Shown: positions 1,430 to 22,253 of the stretch, in pieces | How positions within the stretch are numbered: position 1 is the stretch's first letter | How the letters are laid out: each line of letters starts with the position of its first letter | Source: an uncultured Chitinophagales bacterium | GTDB lineage: Bacteria > Bacteroidota > Bacteroidia > Chitinophagales > JAHDHT01 | DNA: 46,487 nucleotides | Assembly: GCA_938023075.1 (NCBI GenBank) | Contig: CALHDG010000156.1 | Coordinates: 1 to 46,487, forward strand | Direction: 5' to 3' | Notes under the pieces: model-generated | What the model saw: the letters and a program-made list of their open reading frames with translations, nothing else | Database searches by the model: none | Told to the model about the DNA's origin: nothing | Translations under genes and position numbers: made by a program

Positions 1430-1832
1430 AGATCAATTATCATATTCAGAAGATGGCAATTTTGAAATGTTGAATTTCTAACTAAACAAATTTTACAGAT
1501 TCACGATGATTTATTTTCTTTACACTAAAAACAAATTCATCCACAAGGTTAACAAAAAAAGATTCTTCTAAAACAAAAGGGTATCTTTAATTTTGTTTAT
1601 ACATAAATCACATAGTTCTCTTCTCAGAACTCCAGACCCCAGCCCCAAAAATCAGCAGTTCCAGGCAGTTGTTTCGTAAAATAAAATGCGCATTTTTTAG
1701 GCATGCAGTTACGATTACCGACTTTTCCGAAATATACAAAACTAATTTTTACTTGCCTGGATGTTTATGAGCGCAACGATATTGTTCAATACCTTATCAA
1801 CAGCTTGCCAGCTATTGCCACCGCAACAATGA
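1430..1832. other. Intergenic stretch without a recognised gene
   Basis: About 400 bases with no convincing open frame on either strand. It is AT-rich and lies between a gene reading left and the helix-turn-helix remnant that starts at 1833. The part after about 1680 could be a further decayed piece of that remnant, but the frame is interrupted several times and nothing recognisable could be read from it. Confidence 0.5.
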
Positions 1833-2107: not shown

Positions 2108-3163
2108 TTGATACAATTTATAACACGCCGTTTATTTACCGGTGCACTCAGCTTGTTTGGGGTGGTTGTTTTGGTATTTGTTTTATTTATGATTTTACCA
2201 ACCGACCCTGCCCGAATGACTTTAGGGCAACGTGCCGATGTCGCTTCTATTGAAGCTATTCAAAAAGAATTAGGCTTAGATAAACCTAAGCACATCCAAT
2301 TTTTATATTATTTGAATGATTTATCGCCAATCTCTTATCATAAAGATAGCGAAAAAAATCAAAGAAAATACAATTATGCGAAATTATTTAATATGAACGA
2401 GAAAGCGGTTGTATTTAAAATGCCGTATTTGCGAAAATCTTACCAATCGAAAAGAGATGTTAGTGCCATTTTGATAGATGCCTTACCGAAAACAATTATA
2501 CTGGCAAGTGCTGCTATACTACTGGCAATTATCTTCGGCATTACCTTTGGTATTATTGGTGCCTTAAAACAATTTTCTTTTATTGATAATTCTTTGTTGG
2601 TAACTTCCATTATGGGTATTTCTTTACCCAGTTATTTTTCAGGAATTGTATTGGCATTAATTTTTGGTTATTTATTGGCTGATTGGACCGGCTTAAACTA
2701 TACTGGCGGGCTTTGGGTACTCAACGATTATGGCGACGAAGAGTTGGTGTTAAAAAATTTAATTCTACCGGCTATTGCTCTTGGCATTCGCCCAATTGCC
2801 ATTATCACCATGCTCACCAGAAGCTCTATGTTAGAAGTCTTATCACAAGATTACATTCGAACTGCTTATGCCAAAGGGCTTTCGTATTGGAAAGTAGTAA
2901 TTAAACACGCTTTACGGAATGCGTTAAATCCGGTGGTTACCGCAGTATCGGGTTGGTTTGCCGGTTTGTTAGCGGGGGCTTATTTTATTGAGATCATTTT
3001 TGATTTTAAGGGTTTGGGCTATGTAACCATCAAAGCTATCGAAAACTTAGATTTTCCGGTTGTAATGGGTTCTGTATTGTTTGCAGCGGTTATTTTTGTT
3101 ACTATCAATATTTTGGTAGATGTTTTTTATGGAGTGTTAGATCCTAGAGTTTCTTTAAAGTGA
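2108..3163 (+). CDS. DppB/OppB-family ABC transporter permease (orphan)
   Basis: The 351-aa inner-membrane permease starts at TTG with MIQFITRRLF, the usual opening of DppB-type permeases. A first membrane span follows (about residues 9-30), then the FILPTDPARM stretch and a periplasmic loop. Several more spans occupy about residues 115-345. The EAA-like loop that contacts the ATPase is seen near HALRNALNPVV, followed by AGAYFIEIIFDFKGLG, characteristic of this family. Such permeases pair with a DppC-type permease, two ATPases and a binding protein to import di- or oligopeptides. None of these partners is adjacent, which is common in Bacteroidota, where the subunits are often scattered. The loop at about residues 60-105 is long and charged. 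Substrate cannot be read from sequence. Confidence 0.85.
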   Translation: MIQFITRRLFTGALSLFGVVVLVFVLFMILPTDPARMTLGQRADVASIEAIQKELGLDKPKHIQFLYYLNDLSPISYHKDSEKNQRKYNYAKLFNMNEKAVVFKMPYLRKSYQSKRDVSAILIDALPKTIILASAAILLAIIFGITFGIIGALKQFSFIDNSLLVTSIMGISLPSYFSGIVLALIFGYLLADWTGLNYTGGLWVLNDYGDEELVLKNLILPAIALGIRPIAIITMLTRSSMLEVLSQDYIRTAYAKGLSYWKVVIKHALRNALNPVVTAVSGWFAGLLAGAYFIEIIFDFKGLGYVTIKAIENLDFPVVMGSVLFAAVIFVTINILVDVFYGVLDPRVSLK

Positions 3164-3307
3164 TATTACTTTACAAATTTTGTTTTTTTTGTAACCTGTC
3201 TTATCTATAAACGTAAATTCAACTTACAAATAGCATTTATTATAACATATAACATATGTGTTATAATATAATACTAAAATATTTTTTCACGTATTAATCA
3301 ATCAATC

Positions 3308-4972
3308 ATGATAAACAGATTATCACTAATCGTTTTATCTATCCTTACTATCATTTGTCAAACCGTAAACGGACAAAATTGTAATTGTTCAAAATACTTA
3401 TATTTAAATGATACAGGCTTAGATTTTATAGAAAAGTTTAAAATTGACCCTAACGACGGCTCACTAACCGAAATTGGAGATGCTCAAAATGGTATGCCCT
3501 GGCTCAATGCAGCCGGAATTGTAGATGACCCACACGCCATTGCCAGCGACTTGAATGGCAATTTATACATTGGTGAAAATGACCAAATTAATAACGAATA
3601 CAACATTCAAAAATTTAGTTGTATTGGGCAAAAAATTGACGCCAATCTATCTACACCGGCAATTGACAATTTTGCCAATGATGGTTTTAGTTTTAACCAC
3701 TTTTCAATTGGTAATTTATTGTATACCAACATATTTAGCGATTTTCAAACCGGAACTGGCAATATTATTATATATGATTTATGCACAGGAAATCAAGTTG
3801 GTTGTATGAGAGAAGGCTACTTTTGGGGTTTTAATGAAGGAAATGATGGTTATTGGTATGCCACCGGTACAGGTGCTTCAGGTGGTTTTCAAGGCGGTAT
3901 TTATAGAGGATTAATTGATCCGGCAGCCTATACAGATGGGGCAGGAGGTTGCGGTTCATTTGAGCTATTTTTAACAGAAACTCAATTGGGTGTACCCTTT
4001 GGCTCCAGAATAATGGGAATCGATCAAGATGCTAGCGGTAATTTTTATATCGCTGTTTCTGCTGGTGGTGGTTTTAATCCTCCATCTTACATTCAAAAAT
4101 TAGATGTGAATGGTAATGTAATTGCACAATCGCTAACCGACACTCAATTTGATACTAATCTGGCAGATAATTTAAACTGGGCAGGCTCCAGAGGAGTAAC
4201 TTATAATAATGGATATGTGTATGTTTCTTCAGGTGATGATTGTATTGCTGTTTTTGAAAGTACCAATTTAAACTATGAACCTGCGCTTAGTAACAATATC
4301 ATAGCTAGTTTTCCAAAACAAATAGGTTTATTAGAAGAATGTTGCCCCATTAACAATCCCTTAACCATTGATACTTTAATATGTAATGGCACCGGAACGA
4401 TATCTTTTTTACTACAAGATATTTTAAATTGCAATTCATCCGTTTGTGAAGGAGAATGGTCGGTTGATATTACTGATCCAAATGTAACTTATGATGCCTG
4501 CGAAAATTCTATTGCTGTCAATCTTTCTGAAAATACTTGTACCTCATACACCTTAACTTCCGATGGTATGGCTACTAATAATCAATGTGGTCAATTCACT
4601 ATTAATATTAATTTTGAAACAGCTTCGATAACTTCTACAATTATTGAACCTGATCAAACTATCTGTCAAGGTGGCGTTCCACAACCCTTGGTAGCTATTA
4701 GTTCAACGGCTGGCGTGGTTCATCAATGGCAAAGCAGTACAACTGGTTGTAATGGTAGCTTTACTAATATACCCAATGCATCTAATAGCACTTATGCGCC
4801 GCCTGCATTAAATCAAACAACTTATTACCGGGCAATAACTTCCTTACCGGGTACTTGTAGCGATAAAAGTTGCTCAACTACCAGTAATTGCATTACTATT
4901 ACTACCGATATCCCCCCACCAAGATGCATAAATGAATTTGGTGAATTTACTATACAGAAAAGAAGACCCTAG
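3308..4972 (+). CDS. Secreted propeller-like protein with Ig-like C-terminal part
   Basis: The 554-aa protein begins with a classical signal peptide (residues 1-22, cleavage near VNG-QN), so it is exported. Residues about 25-330 hold repeated blocks with DPHAIASDLNGNLYIGEN- and DASGNFYIAVS-like stretches, typical of NHL/SMP-30-like beta-propellers. The remaining part has many cysteines and an Ig-like stretch with QWQSSTTGCNGSFTNIPNAS, common in Bacteroidota adhesin-like proteins. No T9SS sorting domain or FlgD-like ending is present: the protein stops after CINEFGEFTIQKRRP, 7 bp from the convergent rlmH stop. It may have lost its C-terminal domains, or use another sorting tail. Function unknown; a surface or extracellular role is inferred. 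Confidence 0.7.
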   Translation: MINRLSLIVLSILTIICQTVNGQNCNCSKYLYLNDTGLDFIEKFKIDPNDGSLTEIGDAQNGMPWLNAAGIVDDPHAIASDLNGNLYIGENDQINNEYNIQKFSCIGQKIDANLSTPAIDNFANDGFSFNHFSIGNLLYTNIFSDFQTGTGNIIIYDLCTGNQVGCMREGYFWGFNEGNDGYWYATGTGASGGFQGGIYRGLIDPAAYTDGAGGCGSFELFLTETQLGVPFGSRIMGIDQDASGNFYIAVSAGGGFNPPSYIQKLDVNGNVIAQSLTDTQFDTNLADNLNWAGSRGVTYNNGYVYVSSGDDCIAVFESTNLNYEPALSNNIIASFPKQIGLLEECCPINNPLTIDTLICNGTGTISFLLQDILNCNSSVCEGEWSVDITDPNVTYDACENSIAVNLSENTCTSYTLTSDGMATNNQCGQFTININFETASITSTIIEPDQTICQGGVPQPLVAISSTAGVVHQWQSSTTGCNGSFTNIPNASNSTYAPPALNQTTYYRAITSLPGTCSDKSCSTTSNCITITTDIPPPRCINEFGEFTIQKRRP

Positions 4973-17907: not shown

Positions 17908-18435
17908 TCAAGTGTCAAGCAAGGTAGCTTCCATGCATTCAATTAAGGTTTTCATTTCTAAAAAAATAGCTGCTTTAAAATCGTGCTCCAATTTTTGGAA
18001 ACTACTGCAATCATCGGCTATTTGTGTAAGCGAAAGATACAAATTTTTAAAATGCATTTTGTTTAAGTCGGCTTCACTTAACTCAATTTGTGTTGCTTGG
18101 TCTTCTTCTGTTAAATAGTTTACAAAGCTTAAATTTAATTCTAATTTTTTCTGAAAGGCTTCTTGACTGACTTGTGCTTTACTAATGTTCGTTTTGTGTT
18201 CAAAAAACAAAAAGATGATAAATAGCAAATCGTTAATATCGTTAAATGCTTCCTCTGTTAAATTTCCTTGATCCATATGGTCTTCATACTGCATCATCAT
18301 CGATAAAATTAGGGGTTGATTTTCATAAATGCTGGTAAAGATCGAGTCTTTGCCTTCCCCTTCTAATTTATCTATTTTTGATAAGACGGTTTGCAGAACT
18401 TCAAGCTCTTCATTGTCTTCATTTATATCTGTCAT
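17908..18435 (-). CDS. Unknown acidic protein, tandem paralogue 1
   Basis: The 175-aa protein is helical and acidic, without signal peptide, and no named family was recognised. It is clearly homologous to the product of 18678-19190. Both carry (E/K)NQPxxxxMxMxxE near residue 40, then a hydrophobic segment ending in FFExKTNI. Both also have LNLSFVNYL- or TNLQFAEYL-like sequences, and MHFKxLY near residue 132. Identity looks like roughly 30%. In the minus direction it is the downstream gene of the pair; a MITE lies between the two. A cytoplasmic soluble role, perhaps protein-binding, is all that can be inferred. Confidence 0.75.
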   Translation of the reverse strand: MTDINEDNEELEVLQTVLSKIDKLEGEGKDSIFTSIYENQPLILSMMMQYEDHMDQGNLTEEAFNDINDLLFIIFLFFEHKTNISKAQVSQEAFQKKLELNLSFVNYLTEEDQATQIELSEADLNKMHFKNLYLSLTQIADDCSSFQKLEHDFKAAIFLEMKTLIECMEATLLDT

Positions 18436-18677: not shown

Positions 18678-19190
18678 TTATTCATTTAAAAGATACGATT
18701 CCAAGCATTCAATCAATGCTTTCAAAATTAATAAGATGCCATCTTGCAATTCTTCATCATTTTCAAAGCATTTGCTTTCATCTGATAAAAATATCATAGC
18801 CGTATACAAACTTTTAAAATGCATATTTTCCAAATTTAAGGCACCTAATTCTAATTGGTTTTCTTCATTTTCTTCTCCATCTAAATATTCGGCAAATTGA
18901 AGATTAGTCTCGTATTTTTCGTCATACATCGCATCGGTAATGGCAATTTTTTCGATATTGGTTTTTTCTTCGAAGAATAAATAAATGATACAAAACATTT
19001 CTAACAGATAGTCAAATTGCTCATCATTCACCTTTGGTTCAAATGACATCAGCATGGCAACCAGAAATGGTTGATTTTTTCGCATGCGGTCAGTCAATAT
19101 CTGCGCTTCGTGTTGTTCAACTTCTTGAACCTTAGTGTGTAGTTCTTTAATAAATAGTGTTTCTTCTGCAAGCCGGACTGAAATTTCCAT
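18678..19190 (-). CDS. Unknown acidic protein, tandem paralogue 2
   Basis: The 170-aa protein is a paralogue of 17908-18435. The frame is open 11 codons further upstream, but the ATG at 19188-19190 (MEISVRLAEE) is chosen, because it puts the conserved NQP motif at residues 39-41, exactly as in the paralogue. Conserved features are KNQPFLVAMLMSFE, FFEEKTNIEK, TNLQFAEYL and NMHFKSLY. It has no signal peptide or membrane span. Function unknown. The stop codon lies within the direct repeat flanking the MITE, so the insertion went in at the very end of the gene without changing the protein. Confidence 0.75.
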   Translation of the reverse strand: MEISVRLAEETLFIKELHTKVQEVEQHEAQILTDRMRKNQPFLVAMLMSFEPKVNDEQFDYLLEMFCIIYLFFEEKTNIEKIAITDAMYDEKYETNLQFAEYLDGEENEENQLELGALNLENMHFKSLYTAMIFLSDESKCFENDEELQDGILLILKALIECLESYLLNE

Positions 19191-19262
19191 TTTATTATTG
19201 ATAGTTAGGCAAACATTAAACAAAAAAGAGATGAACTAACCAAATAATTGTTCATTTTTTAG

Positions 19263-20032: not shown

Positions 20033-20064
20033 TTTGCTAATATGATCAATTGTTCATACTTTTG
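20033..20064 (+). promoter_or_regulatory. Promoter with palindromic operator of the ArsR-type regulator
   Basis: A -33 TTTG (20033-20036), a 20-bp spacer and a -7 TACTTTTG (20057-20064) form a perfect Bacteroidota promoter. The spacer holds the palindrome-like TATGATCAATTGTTCATA (20041-20058), matched at 14 of 18 positions by the sequence in the promoter at 20535-20566, at the same distance from both promoter boxes. A repressor bound there would block the promoter. Transcription would start at about 20069, right at the chosen ATG, so the mRNA may be leaderless. Confidence 0.65.
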
Positions 20065-20068
20065 TAAG

Positions 20069-20392
20069 ATGCAGGTTGAAAAATCAAAATATACATTAGA
20101 TGAACAGTTGGTAGAGAAGTTAGAACGAATTTCATTTATTTTAAAAACTATAGCACATCCTATGAGATTAGGAATTGTTCATCTATTAGAACAATACCCG
20201 AAACTTTCCGTCAGCGAAATTTGTGAAATGTTAGATTCCGAGCAGTCACTTACCTCACATCACCTTCAAAATATGAGAATTAAAGGTTTACTTTCAGCCG
20301 AAAGAGACGGACGCAACATGATGTATTCTTTAAAAGAAAAAGATGTTAGCCTCATCATTGAATGTCTTGAAAATTGCCAATGTAATATGTAA
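20069..20392 (+). CDS. ArsR-family winged-helix repressor
   Basis: The 107-aa protein is a winged-helix transcription regulator. LERISFILKTIAHPMRLGIV is the typical ArsR opening. SVSEICEMLDSEQSLTSHHL is the helix-turn-helix, and GLLSAERDGRNMMYSL is the wing. The C-terminal CLENCQCNM carries two closely spaced cysteines that could sense metal, sulfide or redox state (inference). The frame begins 27 bases upstream at 20042, but that ATG lies inside the operator and promoter, so the ATG at 20069-20071 is chosen. The matching operator in front of the ferredoxin/NrfD gene 260 bp downstream makes that gene the likely target, with autoregulation. Members of this family respond to sulfide or polysulfide in sulfur metabolism or to metals. 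Confidence 0.85.
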   Translation: MQVEKSKYTLDEQLVEKLERISFILKTIAHPMRLGIVHLLEQYPKLSVSEICEMLDSEQSLTSHHLQNMRIKGLLSAERDGRNMMYSLKEKDVSLIIECLENCQCNM

Positions 20393-20534
20393 ACTCACAC
20401 ATCTGTAATCTCTTTCTAAGAATTAAATACAGTTTTTAGTAAAACTTAATATTTCGGTTATTATATCCGAACATTATTTGTAACAAGTATACTAGCATTT
20501 TTTGCTTATAACACAAGGTTCTTTCTTCGATATT

Positions 20535-20566
20535 TGAAAATATGAAAAAATGTTCATAAGTTTGAG
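20535..20566 (+). promoter_or_regulatory. Promoter with ArsR-type operator of the ferredoxin/NrfD gene
   Basis: A -33 TTTG (20535-20538) and a -7 TAAGTTTG (20559-20566) are separated by a 20-bp spacer. The spacer carries TATGAAAAAATGTTCATA (20543-20560), an inverted repeat (TATGAA...TTCATA). It shares TATGA and TGTTCATA with the site at 20041-20058, starting the same 5 bp after the -33 box. The predicted transcript starts near 20571, giving a leader of about 80 nt before the ATG at 20652. Confidence 0.65.
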
Positions 20567-20651
20567 TATCAATTAAAGGATTGATGTTTTAAACAAATAT
20601 TAAGGTTTCAACACATTCATTAATTAATAATTATAAATATATAACTACTTA

Positions 20652-22253
20652 ATGAAATACGGATTCGTAATTGACAACAGAAAATGCATCGGCTGCCACG
20701 CTTGCACTACCGCCTGCAAATCAGAACACGAAGTACCGGTTGGCGTAAACCGAACATGGGTAAAACAGGTTGAAAAAGGCACTTTCCCCAATACCCGCCG
20801 TTTGTTTTCGGTAATGCGCTGCAACCATTGTACAGATGCCCCATGTGTAAGTATCTGCCCAACAGAAGCCTTATTTACCAGAGAAGATGGTATTGTAGAT
20901 TTCAATTCAGACCGTTGCATCGGCTGCAAATCGTGCATGCAAGCCTGCCCGTACGATGCCTTATATATTGACCCCGAAACCCACACCGCCGCCAAATGTA
21001 ACTACTGCGCCCACCGAATTGACATAGGTTTAGAACCTGCCTGCGTCAACGTCTGTCCCGAAGAAGCCATCATTTCTGGCAATATGGAAGACCCTGATAC
21101 CAAAATCGCCAAACTGCTTGCCAAACAACCTGTAAAAGTTCGCAAACCTGAAAAAGGAACCCAACCCAACCTCTTTTATATAGATGCCGACGATATTTCG
21201 CTCAACCCAACCGCTACCGAAGCCTCCGAAAATTTTTGGAACAGCCAAGACTTAGGCGTTGGACATTTTGCCAAACAAGCCGAAAAAATGGCGATGAGCA
21301 ATGCTGCTGTAAACCACGCGCTAACCCAAATCAATGTAAACAAAACAAAAAAAACACCCCCCAAATCAATTGATGTTTTATTGGGCAAAGGACGGCGCAT
21401 TTACGACACGCCAGACAAAGGCATTCTTTGGGGATGGGAAGTATCGGCTTACGTGCTTACCAAAGCAATTGCCACCGGTGCCTTTCTCGTTCCGTTTATT
21501 GCATGGGCATTTGGTTTTGCCGAAATTAATTCCACCGCCATGTGGGCAGGTTTATTTACAGGCTTAATTTTTTTGGGCTTAACCGGTTTGCTACTCATTA
21601 AAGATTTAGACCAACCCAAACGATTTCTCAACGTCCTTTTTCGCCCCCAATGGAAATCGTGGTTGGTCAGAGGCGGTTACGCCATCACCGCATTCGGCGG
21701 CTTACTCAGCCTTCTCGCCTTAAGCACTTTTTTCAATTGGAACAAGCTCAGTAATGTTTTAATGTACCTCACCGCCCCCGTCGCTGTCATTGTTTCCGTT
21801 TACACCGCTTTTTTATTTGCACAAGCCAAAGGGCGCGATTTTTGGCAAAGTCCTATATTACCCATTCATATGTTAGTACACACATTTATGGCAGGTACAG
21901 CAGTATTTGCATTGCTTTCTTTAATATTTGAAAATGGAGAAAATTGGTTGCCTTTTATTAAAATTGTAATGCTTATTTCTATCAGCATCAACTTACTTAG
22001 CATGCTTATAGAATTAAGTATCACCCACCCAACAGAAGACGCCAAACGAACCGTACAAATGATTTACAAAGGCAGATACCGCCACCTGTTTTGGAGTACC
22101 GTTATTTTATTAGGAAACATCTTACCCATAACAATTTTATTACTCGGCGGTAGTTCCATTATATTAGCAAGTGCAGGCATACTTGTACTTACCGGCATCT
22201 ATTTTACAGAACACATTTGGATAGAAGCCCCGCAACAAATCCAATTAAAATAA
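20652..22253 (+). CDS. Fused four-cluster [4Fe-4S] ferredoxin and NrfD-type membrane subunit
   Basis: The 533-aa protein joins two subunits of molybdopterin oxidoreductases of the DMSO/polysulfide reductase kind. Residues 1-170 are a DmsB/PsrB-like ferredoxin with four cysteine clusters: CIGCHACTTACK, CNHCTDAPCVSICP, CIGCKSCMQACP and CNYCAHRI...CVNVCP. After a linker (about 170-255), residues 255-525 hold about eight membrane spans of the NrfD/PsrC type, which exchange electrons with quinone. The usual partner, a large molybdopterin catalytic subunit, is missing: a MITE follows 13 bp downstream and then a gene on the other strand. The first half uses notably more C-ending codons than its neighbours, which may indicate transfer. 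Regulation by the ArsR-type protein upstream is inferred from the shared operator. Confidence 0.85.
   Translation: MKYGFVIDNRKCIGCHACTTACKSEHEVPVGVNRTWVKQVEKGTFPNTRRLFSVMRCNHCTDAPCVSICPTEALFTREDGIVDFNSDRCIGCKSCMQACPYDALYIDPETHTAAKCNYCAHRIDIGLEPACVNVCPEEAIISGNMEDPDTKIAKLLAKQPVKVRKPEKGTQPNLFYIDADDISLNPTATEASENFWNSQDLGVGHFAKQAEKMAMSNAAVNHALTQINVNKTKKTPPKSIDVLLGKGRRIYDTPDKGILWGWEVSAYVLTKAIATGAFLVPFIAWAFGFAEINSTAMWAGLFTGLIFLGLTGLLLIKDLDQPKRFLNVLFRPQWKSWLVRGGYAITAFGGLLSLLALSTFFNWNKLSNVLMYLTAPVAVIVSVYTAFLFAQAKGRDFWQSPILPIHMLVHTFMAGTAVFALLSLIFENGENWLPFIKIVMLISISINLLSMLIELSITHPTEDAKRTVQMIYKGRYRHLFWSTVILLGNILPITILLLGGSSIILASAGILVLTGIYFTEHIWIEAPQQIQLK

Follow-up and report, generated by a model that had tools for sequence, protein, structure and literature searches.

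A promoter-spacer operator links an ArsR-family gene and a split molybdoenzyme to a putative sulfide-oxidation regulon in Bacteroidota

The window analysed here, a stretch of 46,487 nucleotides from an uncultured member of the Chitinophagales, carries a gene for an ArsR-type protein followed by a gene for an Fe-S/NrfD membrane protein, and the initial annotation had proposed that the promoters of both share one 18-bp operator in identical position. This raises the questions of which genes the encoded protein would control, and to which signal it would respond.

Operators within the promoter spacers of the window

Both sites are present as exact matches to one composite pattern, TTTG-N4-TATGA-N5-TGTTCATA-NN-TTTG, in which TTTG is followed by 4 nt, the 18-mer, 2 nt and a second TTTG: TTTGCTAATATGATCAATTGTTCATACTTTTG (20033-20064) before arsR and TTTGAAAATATGAAAAAATGTTCATAAGTTTG (20533-20564) before the Fe-S/NrfD gene (Table 1). 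The shared operator and its common register thus stand as first described, as does the 20-nt spacer from TTTG to TA, which is the same at both sites. Two corrections concern the second 18-mer, which lies two bases earlier than the reported 20543-20560, and the placement 5 bp after the -33 TTTG, which is right in so far as the fifth base is the first of the operator, the gap itself being 4 nt. Operator 1 follows the dyad TATGAA-N6-TTCATA with one mismatch, and at each promoter the last two bases of the operator's right arm are the TA of the -7 box. For the Fe-S/NrfD gene a transcription start is predicted at 20569, giving a leader of about 83 nt. Its -7 box has a G at -9, as does that of the C55 site described below, a base reported to be disfavoured and almost never found there (PMC6847099). 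Elsewhere in the window, two neighbouring reverse-strand genes (17908-18435 and 18678-19223) encode similar-looking proteins of 175-181 aa, both with FFE-KTNI; neither has a Pfam match, and they are perhaps a tandem pair.

Table 1. Coordinates of the promoter elements and genes discussed; positions are those of the window unless a contig is named.
Feature	Position	Strand	Basis or remark
-33 element TTTG, arsR promoter	20033..20036	+	Sequence; Bacteroidetes consensus TTTG/TAnnTTTG (PMC6847099)
Operator 1, TATGATCAATTGTTCATA	20041..20058	+	Fills the -33/-7 spacer; register shared with arsR orthologues
-7 box TACTTTTG, arsR promoter	20057..20064	+	TA in common with operator 1
arsR, 107-aa ArsR/SmtB winged-helix protein, predicted repressor	20069..20392	+	Pfam HTH_5, NCBIfam HTH_metalloreg, AlphaFold model
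-33 element TTTG, Fe-S/NrfD promoter	20533..20536	+	Sequence
Operator 2, TATGAAAAAATGTTCATA	20541..20558	+	Perfect dyad TATGAA-N6-TTCATA
-7 box TAAGTTTG, Fe-S/NrfD promoter	20557..20564	+	Sequence; PMC6847099
Fe-S/NrfD fusion	20652..22253	+	Pfam Fer4_11 and NrfD
Mo catalytic subunit (L048)	G000:C55:11818-14721	-	Pfam Molybdopterin, Molydop_binding, Molybdop_Fe4S4
ArsR2 module (L231, L091, L311)	G000:C163:23-1986		Paralogous ArsR, 40% identical, then the genome's persulfide dioxygenase

The position of operator 1 bears on the start of arsR, as the ATG at 20042 lies inside it and is a spurious start. The A of the ATG at 20069 lies 5 nt on from the last G of the -7 box, with 4 nt between them. 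Transcription in F. johnsoniae starts such that the last G of TAnnTTTG occupies position -5 (PMC6847099); with this spacing, +1 of the arsR promoter would be the A of the ATG at 20069, and a leaderless arsR mRNA is predicted. Five other members of the ArsR subfamily also have 4 nt between box and ATG, and in several more the interval is 3 to 6 nt. These observations uphold the shift of the start from 20042 to 20069 and the leaderless transcript that had been suggested. A conserved leaderless start for a repressor would be unusual, given that only 5.5% of mapped mRNAs are leaderless in F. psychrophilum (PMC9723704).

As the composite pattern was written after sight of both window sites, the clean test of its significance lies elsewhere in the genome. 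Within the window, two matches at up to 3 mismatches compare with 0.01 expected from shuffles, and a first-order model predicts 3e-7 exact matches for the window and 4e-5 for the whole 6.12-Mb genome. Genome-wide searches, run with reversed-pattern controls, returned a third exact match and no others, at C55:14813-14844 before a gene for a 967-aa molybdopterin oxidoreductase, and 0 exact matches for the reversed composite. The shared geometry, already judged unlikely by chance in the initial annotation, is thus borne out by the shuffles and by a third site before a functionally linked gene. Specificity resides only in the composite, that is, the operator plus both promoter boxes in register: the bare 18-mer with mismatches is unremarkable (6 in the window against 2.6 expected), and the bare dyad was dropped as a genome-wide classifier, being at or below control at up to 1 mismatch (41 against 58). 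The fourth exact 18-mer of the genome, at C169:9744, has neither promoter boxes nor a sulfur gene near it and was taken as chance. One could read the shared 18-mers as chance, or as an AT-rich feature that Bacteroidota promoters have in general, and the lack of enrichment of the dyad would suit this, as would the roughly 100 occurrences of TTTG-N20-TAnnTTTG alone that are expected in the genome. Such a reading is scarcely credible, however, given three occurrences of the composite against so small an expectation, and given that the independent third site and the sites in relatives converge on one pathway.

The split molybdoenzyme and the operator in related genomes

The Fe-S/NrfD protein joins two domains in one chain, an electron-transfer domain with 4x[4Fe-4S] and an NrfD membrane domain that binds quinone. 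Orthologues of this protein and of the Mo subunit encoded on C55 co-occur in ten relatives, side by side on one contig in nine and on different contigs in G041, and nearly all of the 80 named loci introduced below also have them next to each other. This adjacency, together with the same operator at both halves, links the two genes as one enzyme: judged by sequence and gene order, the Fe-S/NrfD protein is the B+C part and the C55 product the A part of a molybdoenzyme that is split in this genome, and an orphan Fe-S/NrfD gene is thereby matched to a catalytic subunit on another contig. The same arrangement recurs in L198, where the Mo gene stands apart from the Fe-S/NrfD gene with an operator of its own. 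The idea of a self-contained regulon has to be given up: the C55 gene for the Mo subunit belongs to the regulon at the least, and in relatives so does a whole sulfide-oxidation set. Operator 2 and the C55 composite are identical in 31/32 bases; a simple promoter duplication was considered for this pair but rejected, as the flanks are without clear similarity by eye. A composite with two mismatches, TTTGAATGTATGTTGTAATGTTCATATATTTA (C55:4424-4455), lies upstream of a beta-propeller lipoprotein gene (3097-4257), which is a possible further member of the regulon. A gene for a single-domain rhodanese is also present on C55 (5972-6343).

Conservation of the operator was followed in three partly overlapping sets: (a) 20 relatives, (b) 80 named loci from Saprospiraceae, Lewinella, Lutibacter and others, found via an alignment of the Fe-S/NrfD protein, and (c) 398 genomes scanned across the order, with some genomes, such as L276 and L198, common to (b) and (c). 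Among the 20 relatives, sites precede arsR orthologues, persulfide dioxygenase (PDO) genes (L128, L129, L134), SQR-like genes (L120, L127) and an Fe-S/NrfD gene (L121). The clusters at the named loci contain PDO (about 32), rhodanese (12), ArsR orthologues (10, scoring 151-177 bits) and SQR (7). At up to 3 mismatches the full dyad is found there before 20/32 PDO, 5/10 ArsR and 6/80 Fe-S/NrfD genes, with 0 sites for the complement control at the same threshold, and the strict register yields 26 sites, 25 of them directly before PDO (14), Fe-S/NrfD (8), SQR, ArsR or Mo genes. No site was found at the Flavobacteriaceae loci of this set, and most Fe-S/NrfD orthologues, including all those of Flavobacteriaceae, are without an operator directly in front. 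Conservation of the motif upstream of orthologues, on which the original proposal depended, thus holds for the head of the operon (often PDO) in Saprospiraceae-type genomes and for a minority of Fe-S/NrfD genes, but not for Flavobacteriaceae.

A shuffled dyad, AATGTA-N6-TACATT, gave five register hits and was rejected as a second operator, since all five fall in a coding stretch that is homologous across five Lutibacter-type genomes. This stretch, near 4600 on the reverse strand in L186, L188, L192, L203 and L214, mimics a dyad in promoter register, and motif statistics of this kind should be read with corresponding caution.

With up to 2 mismatches allowed, the order-wide scan gave 97 sites for the composite and 26 for the reversed pattern, as counted from the scan table. 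With 1 mismatch at most, and leaving aside the genome's own sites, 16/20 precede PDO, ArsR, SQR, DUF1641-SQR, Fe-S/NrfD or Mo genes; at 2 mismatches, SulP and YeeE-type sulfur transporters also appear among the targets. A DUF1641-type protein is encoded behind the operator in L278, L283, L287, L298 and L299, with an SQR-like flavoprotein gene directly after it in four of them, which suggests that DUF1641 works in sulfide oxidation. The composite stands before about half of 49 ArsR-subfamily genes in the same register, which argues for the encoded ArsR as the likely repressor, as had been assumed from its position between the sites. A class-wide scan (395 genomes, up to 2 mismatches) found 16 genomes with a site, along with a handful of control matches; its best sites precede members of the ArsR subfamily (L140-L142, L147-L149), and the remaining ones look like chance or another regulator, for example a TetR-type gene in L143, from another Bacteroidota genome. 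This gene has its own palindrome, TATGACC-N4-GGTCATA, in exactly the same -33/-7 register (1501-1532, reverse strand), so an operator that fills the spacer may be a layout used generally by repressors of Bacteroidota.

The ArsR protein and its probable effector

ArsR scores above the cut-offs of Pfam HTH_5 (PF01022; 37.9 bits against 22) and NCBIfam HTH_metalloreg (NF033788; 69.7 against 55) and well below that of the BigR equivalog (NF040642; 46.3 against 155, with one orthologue at 52.1). The inverted-repeat operator over the own core promoter, a trait of the ArsR/SmtB family, is seen here in operator 1, with its register kept in orthologues. The AlphaFold model (pLDDT 89.8) has YgaV as its closest fold and as the closest solved structure by both sequence and fold (3cuo, E=4e-14, Z 14.5), with HlyU and SqrR also near and BigR at Z 13.9. 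Fold comparison fails to discriminate persulfide from metal sensors, as top chains of both kinds (SmtB, CadC, BigR, HlyU and SqrR) lie within about 2 Z units.

ArsR has four cysteines (C52, C99, C103 and C105) and not just two at the C-terminus, as had been noted. Every proven persulfide-sensing ArsR protein has a cysteine pair, placed in alpha2 and alpha5 (PMC10509353). Like its nearest solved structures, the cluster 4 proteins SqrR, YgaV and HlyU, the protein has a residue, C105, that aligns with the alpha5 sensing cysteine, but the alpha2 position is occupied by His38, and the conserved pair here is C99/C103. As the defining alpha2+alpha5 pair of SqrR, BigR and HlyU is absent, ArsR falls outside this group. 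C99 and C103 are nearly invariant across 45 relatives, with C52 and C105 kept in the closest group; in the model C99 lies in alpha5, and C103 and C105, the latter not conserved subfamily-wide, lie just past the modelled helix end. The genomic association that marks cluster 4, with genes for sulfurtransferase/rhodanese, dioxygenase and sulfur transport, is also found here. From this gene context we infer that ArsR works like BigR and SqrR without being a member of their group, presumably as a cysteine-based sensor that uses a pair other than alpha2+alpha5.

The neighbouring and co-regulated genes (PDO, SQR, rhodanese, SulP and YeeE/TauE) are in keeping with the sulfide or polysulfide response that had been guessed at, and give no support to a metal response, offered as an alternative, in spite of the cysteine cluster at alpha5. 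Metal sensors such as SmtB and CzrA have the same fold and, as here, an inverted-repeat operator overlapping the promoter; they differ in their cysteine set, and no metal-related targets are seen here. With the same operator and repressor, ArsR could still be a metal or As(III) sensor acting through C99, C103 and C105, at or near alpha5, and the molybdoenzyme could handle arsenic or a metal oxyanion. HTH_metalloreg is the best match of the subfamily, the atypical As(III) sensors of cluster 5, which bind with three alpha5 cysteines, provide a precedent (PMC10509353), and the Fe-S and Mo parts resemble ArrB and ArrA about as well as other members. However, beside the sites no ars or metal-efflux gene was recognised; the recurrent targets, PDO, SQR and DUF1641-SQR, include no metal gene, and around them lie genes for rhodanese, TauE, YeeE and SulP. 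We consider the metal reading quite improbable.

A further candidate for the protein that reads the operator is ArsR2, which stands on C163 before the only PDO found in this genome, so that C163 is a second sulfur ArsR module. Its site, TTTGAACGTTTGTTAAAATATTCATACATTTG (C163:1955), has the same promoter register. The two repressors may share or divide sites, as is the case for SoxR and sHdrR of Hyphomicrobium denitrificans, two related ArsR repressors of sulfur oxidation to sulfite with common sites (PMC12423496), although these belong to another phylum, have the classical cysteine pair and control other enzymes (Sox, sHdr). The related site with PDO downstream and the SoxR/sHdrR precedent would both be compatible with an operator that is read mainly by ArsR2, or by both proteins, leaving the window ArsR secondary or redundant. 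Yet the site at ArsR2, with its left arm broken, differs from the composite in 3 positions, the promoter of the window arsR holds a close match, and orthologues of the window arsR sit in the PDO/Fe-S-NrfD clusters, which makes a secondary role for the window ArsR distinctly unlikely. A type III SQR was not found in this genome by protein or family search, which gave weak FAD-domain matches only; weak matches in the family search also occurred in all 14 control genomes, so that it is uninformative at that level.

A SoeABC-like enzyme and the proposed regulon

Pfam and PDB sequence matches fix the architecture of the enzyme as that of a complex iron-sulfur molybdoenzyme (CISM), with a Mo-bisPGD subunit carrying Fe4S4, a 4x[4Fe-4S] subunit and an NrfD-like subunit. 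A twin-arginine motif (RRx[FLIV]) before the Fe-S motif was found in 0/76 Mo orthologues, in agreement with the catalytic subunit of SoeABC, which lies on the cytoplasmic side (PMC8076601), and not with the exported, twin-arginine-bearing catalytic subunits of PsrABC and PhsABC. PDO, the recurrent genomic partner, belongs to a sulfite-forming type of enzyme (PMC5823870), and sulfite is the substrate of SoeABC. These two grounds make a SoeABC-like sulfite:quinone oxidoreductase the probable identity of the split enzyme. The enzyme resembles SoeABC of Allochromatium and Aquifex (PMC8076601) in its Mo subunit without Tat signal, its 4x[4Fe-4S] subunit and its NrfD-type quinone subunit, and differs in having B and C fused and A on another contig; the likeness described here is one of architecture. 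The Mo subunit scores far below every NCBIfam equivalog cut-off. The sulfur regulon could also be real and its molybdoenzyme reductive, acting on polysulfide, thiosulfate or tetrathionate, and the best NCBIfam and PDB matches (PhsA, the PsrABC-type structure 2vpw, TtrB and NrfC) point in that direction. PsrA, PhsA and TtrA are exported, however, and the 76 Mo orthologues are without a Tat signal; the partner PDO, moreover, is of the oxygen-using, sulfite-producing kind. A reductive enzyme is therefore unlikely.

Taken together, we favour, with a probability of roughly 0.72, a dispersed sulfide-oxidation regulon under an autoregulated ArsR that is released by reactive sulfur and induces a SoeABC-like complex, the window being one part of it. 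To the operator, its register, the co-occurrence with sulfur genes, the leaderless spacing and the gene split, all read from the DNA itself, this model adds ArsR binding, repression, an effector and an enzyme substrate. An ArsR dimer would occupy the TATGAA-N6-TTCATA operator, filling the spacer between -33 TTTG and -7 TAnnTTTG and including the TA of the -7 box, and would thereby block sigma-A RNA polymerase at three promoters, the leaderless one of arsR itself and those of the Fe-S/NrfD and C55 Mo genes. Reactive sulfur species, that is, persulfide or polysulfide derived from sulfide, would attack C99/C103, perhaps with C105 and C52, and release the repressor. The induced complex of Mo and Fe-S/NrfD proteins, having no Tat signal, would most likely oxidise the sulfite made by PDO and pass the electrons to quinone, as SoeABC does.

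The steric block of the core promoter, the autorepression and the release by sulfide-derived sulfane sulfur are modelled on BigR, an ArsR repressor that covers the -10 region of an operon with PDO and is released by sulfide or polysulfide (PMC5823870). BigR of Xylella and Agrobacterium (bigR-blh-TauE) is likewise an ArsR-fold autorepressor on a core promoter, with a sulfide-to-sulfite operon that includes an ETHE1-type dioxygenase and TauE (PMC5823870); the protein described here differs in having no equivalent of Cys42, in an operator placed in the Bacteroidota -33/-7 spacer and in a dispersed regulon that includes a molybdoenzyme.

Sulfur-responsive ArsR repressors are already known. Bacteroidota carry PDO, and sqr and pdo transcripts rise on addition of sulfide to marine sediment (PMC12345210); in the literature searched, outside which most subscription journals lie, no regulator of sulfide or persulfide oxidation was found for this phylum, and the operator-in-spacer architecture, the different cysteine set and the SoeABC-like target appear to be undescribed. 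We see about an even chance that a Bacteroidota clade of ArsR proteins with a new sulfur site (C99-x3-C103, with His38 for the alpha2 cysteine) controls, via one operator in fixed register, the complete route from sulfide to sulfate, comprising SQR, PDO and the SoeABC-like enzyme with its fused B and C parts. As the composite promoter/operator pattern marks the genes for the repressor, PDO, SQR and the SoeABC-like enzyme, it makes the regulon recognisable in Bacteroidota genome sequences. If ArsR senses persulfide without an alpha2 cysteine, the alpha2+alpha5 rule for persulfide-sensing ArsR proteins would need widening.
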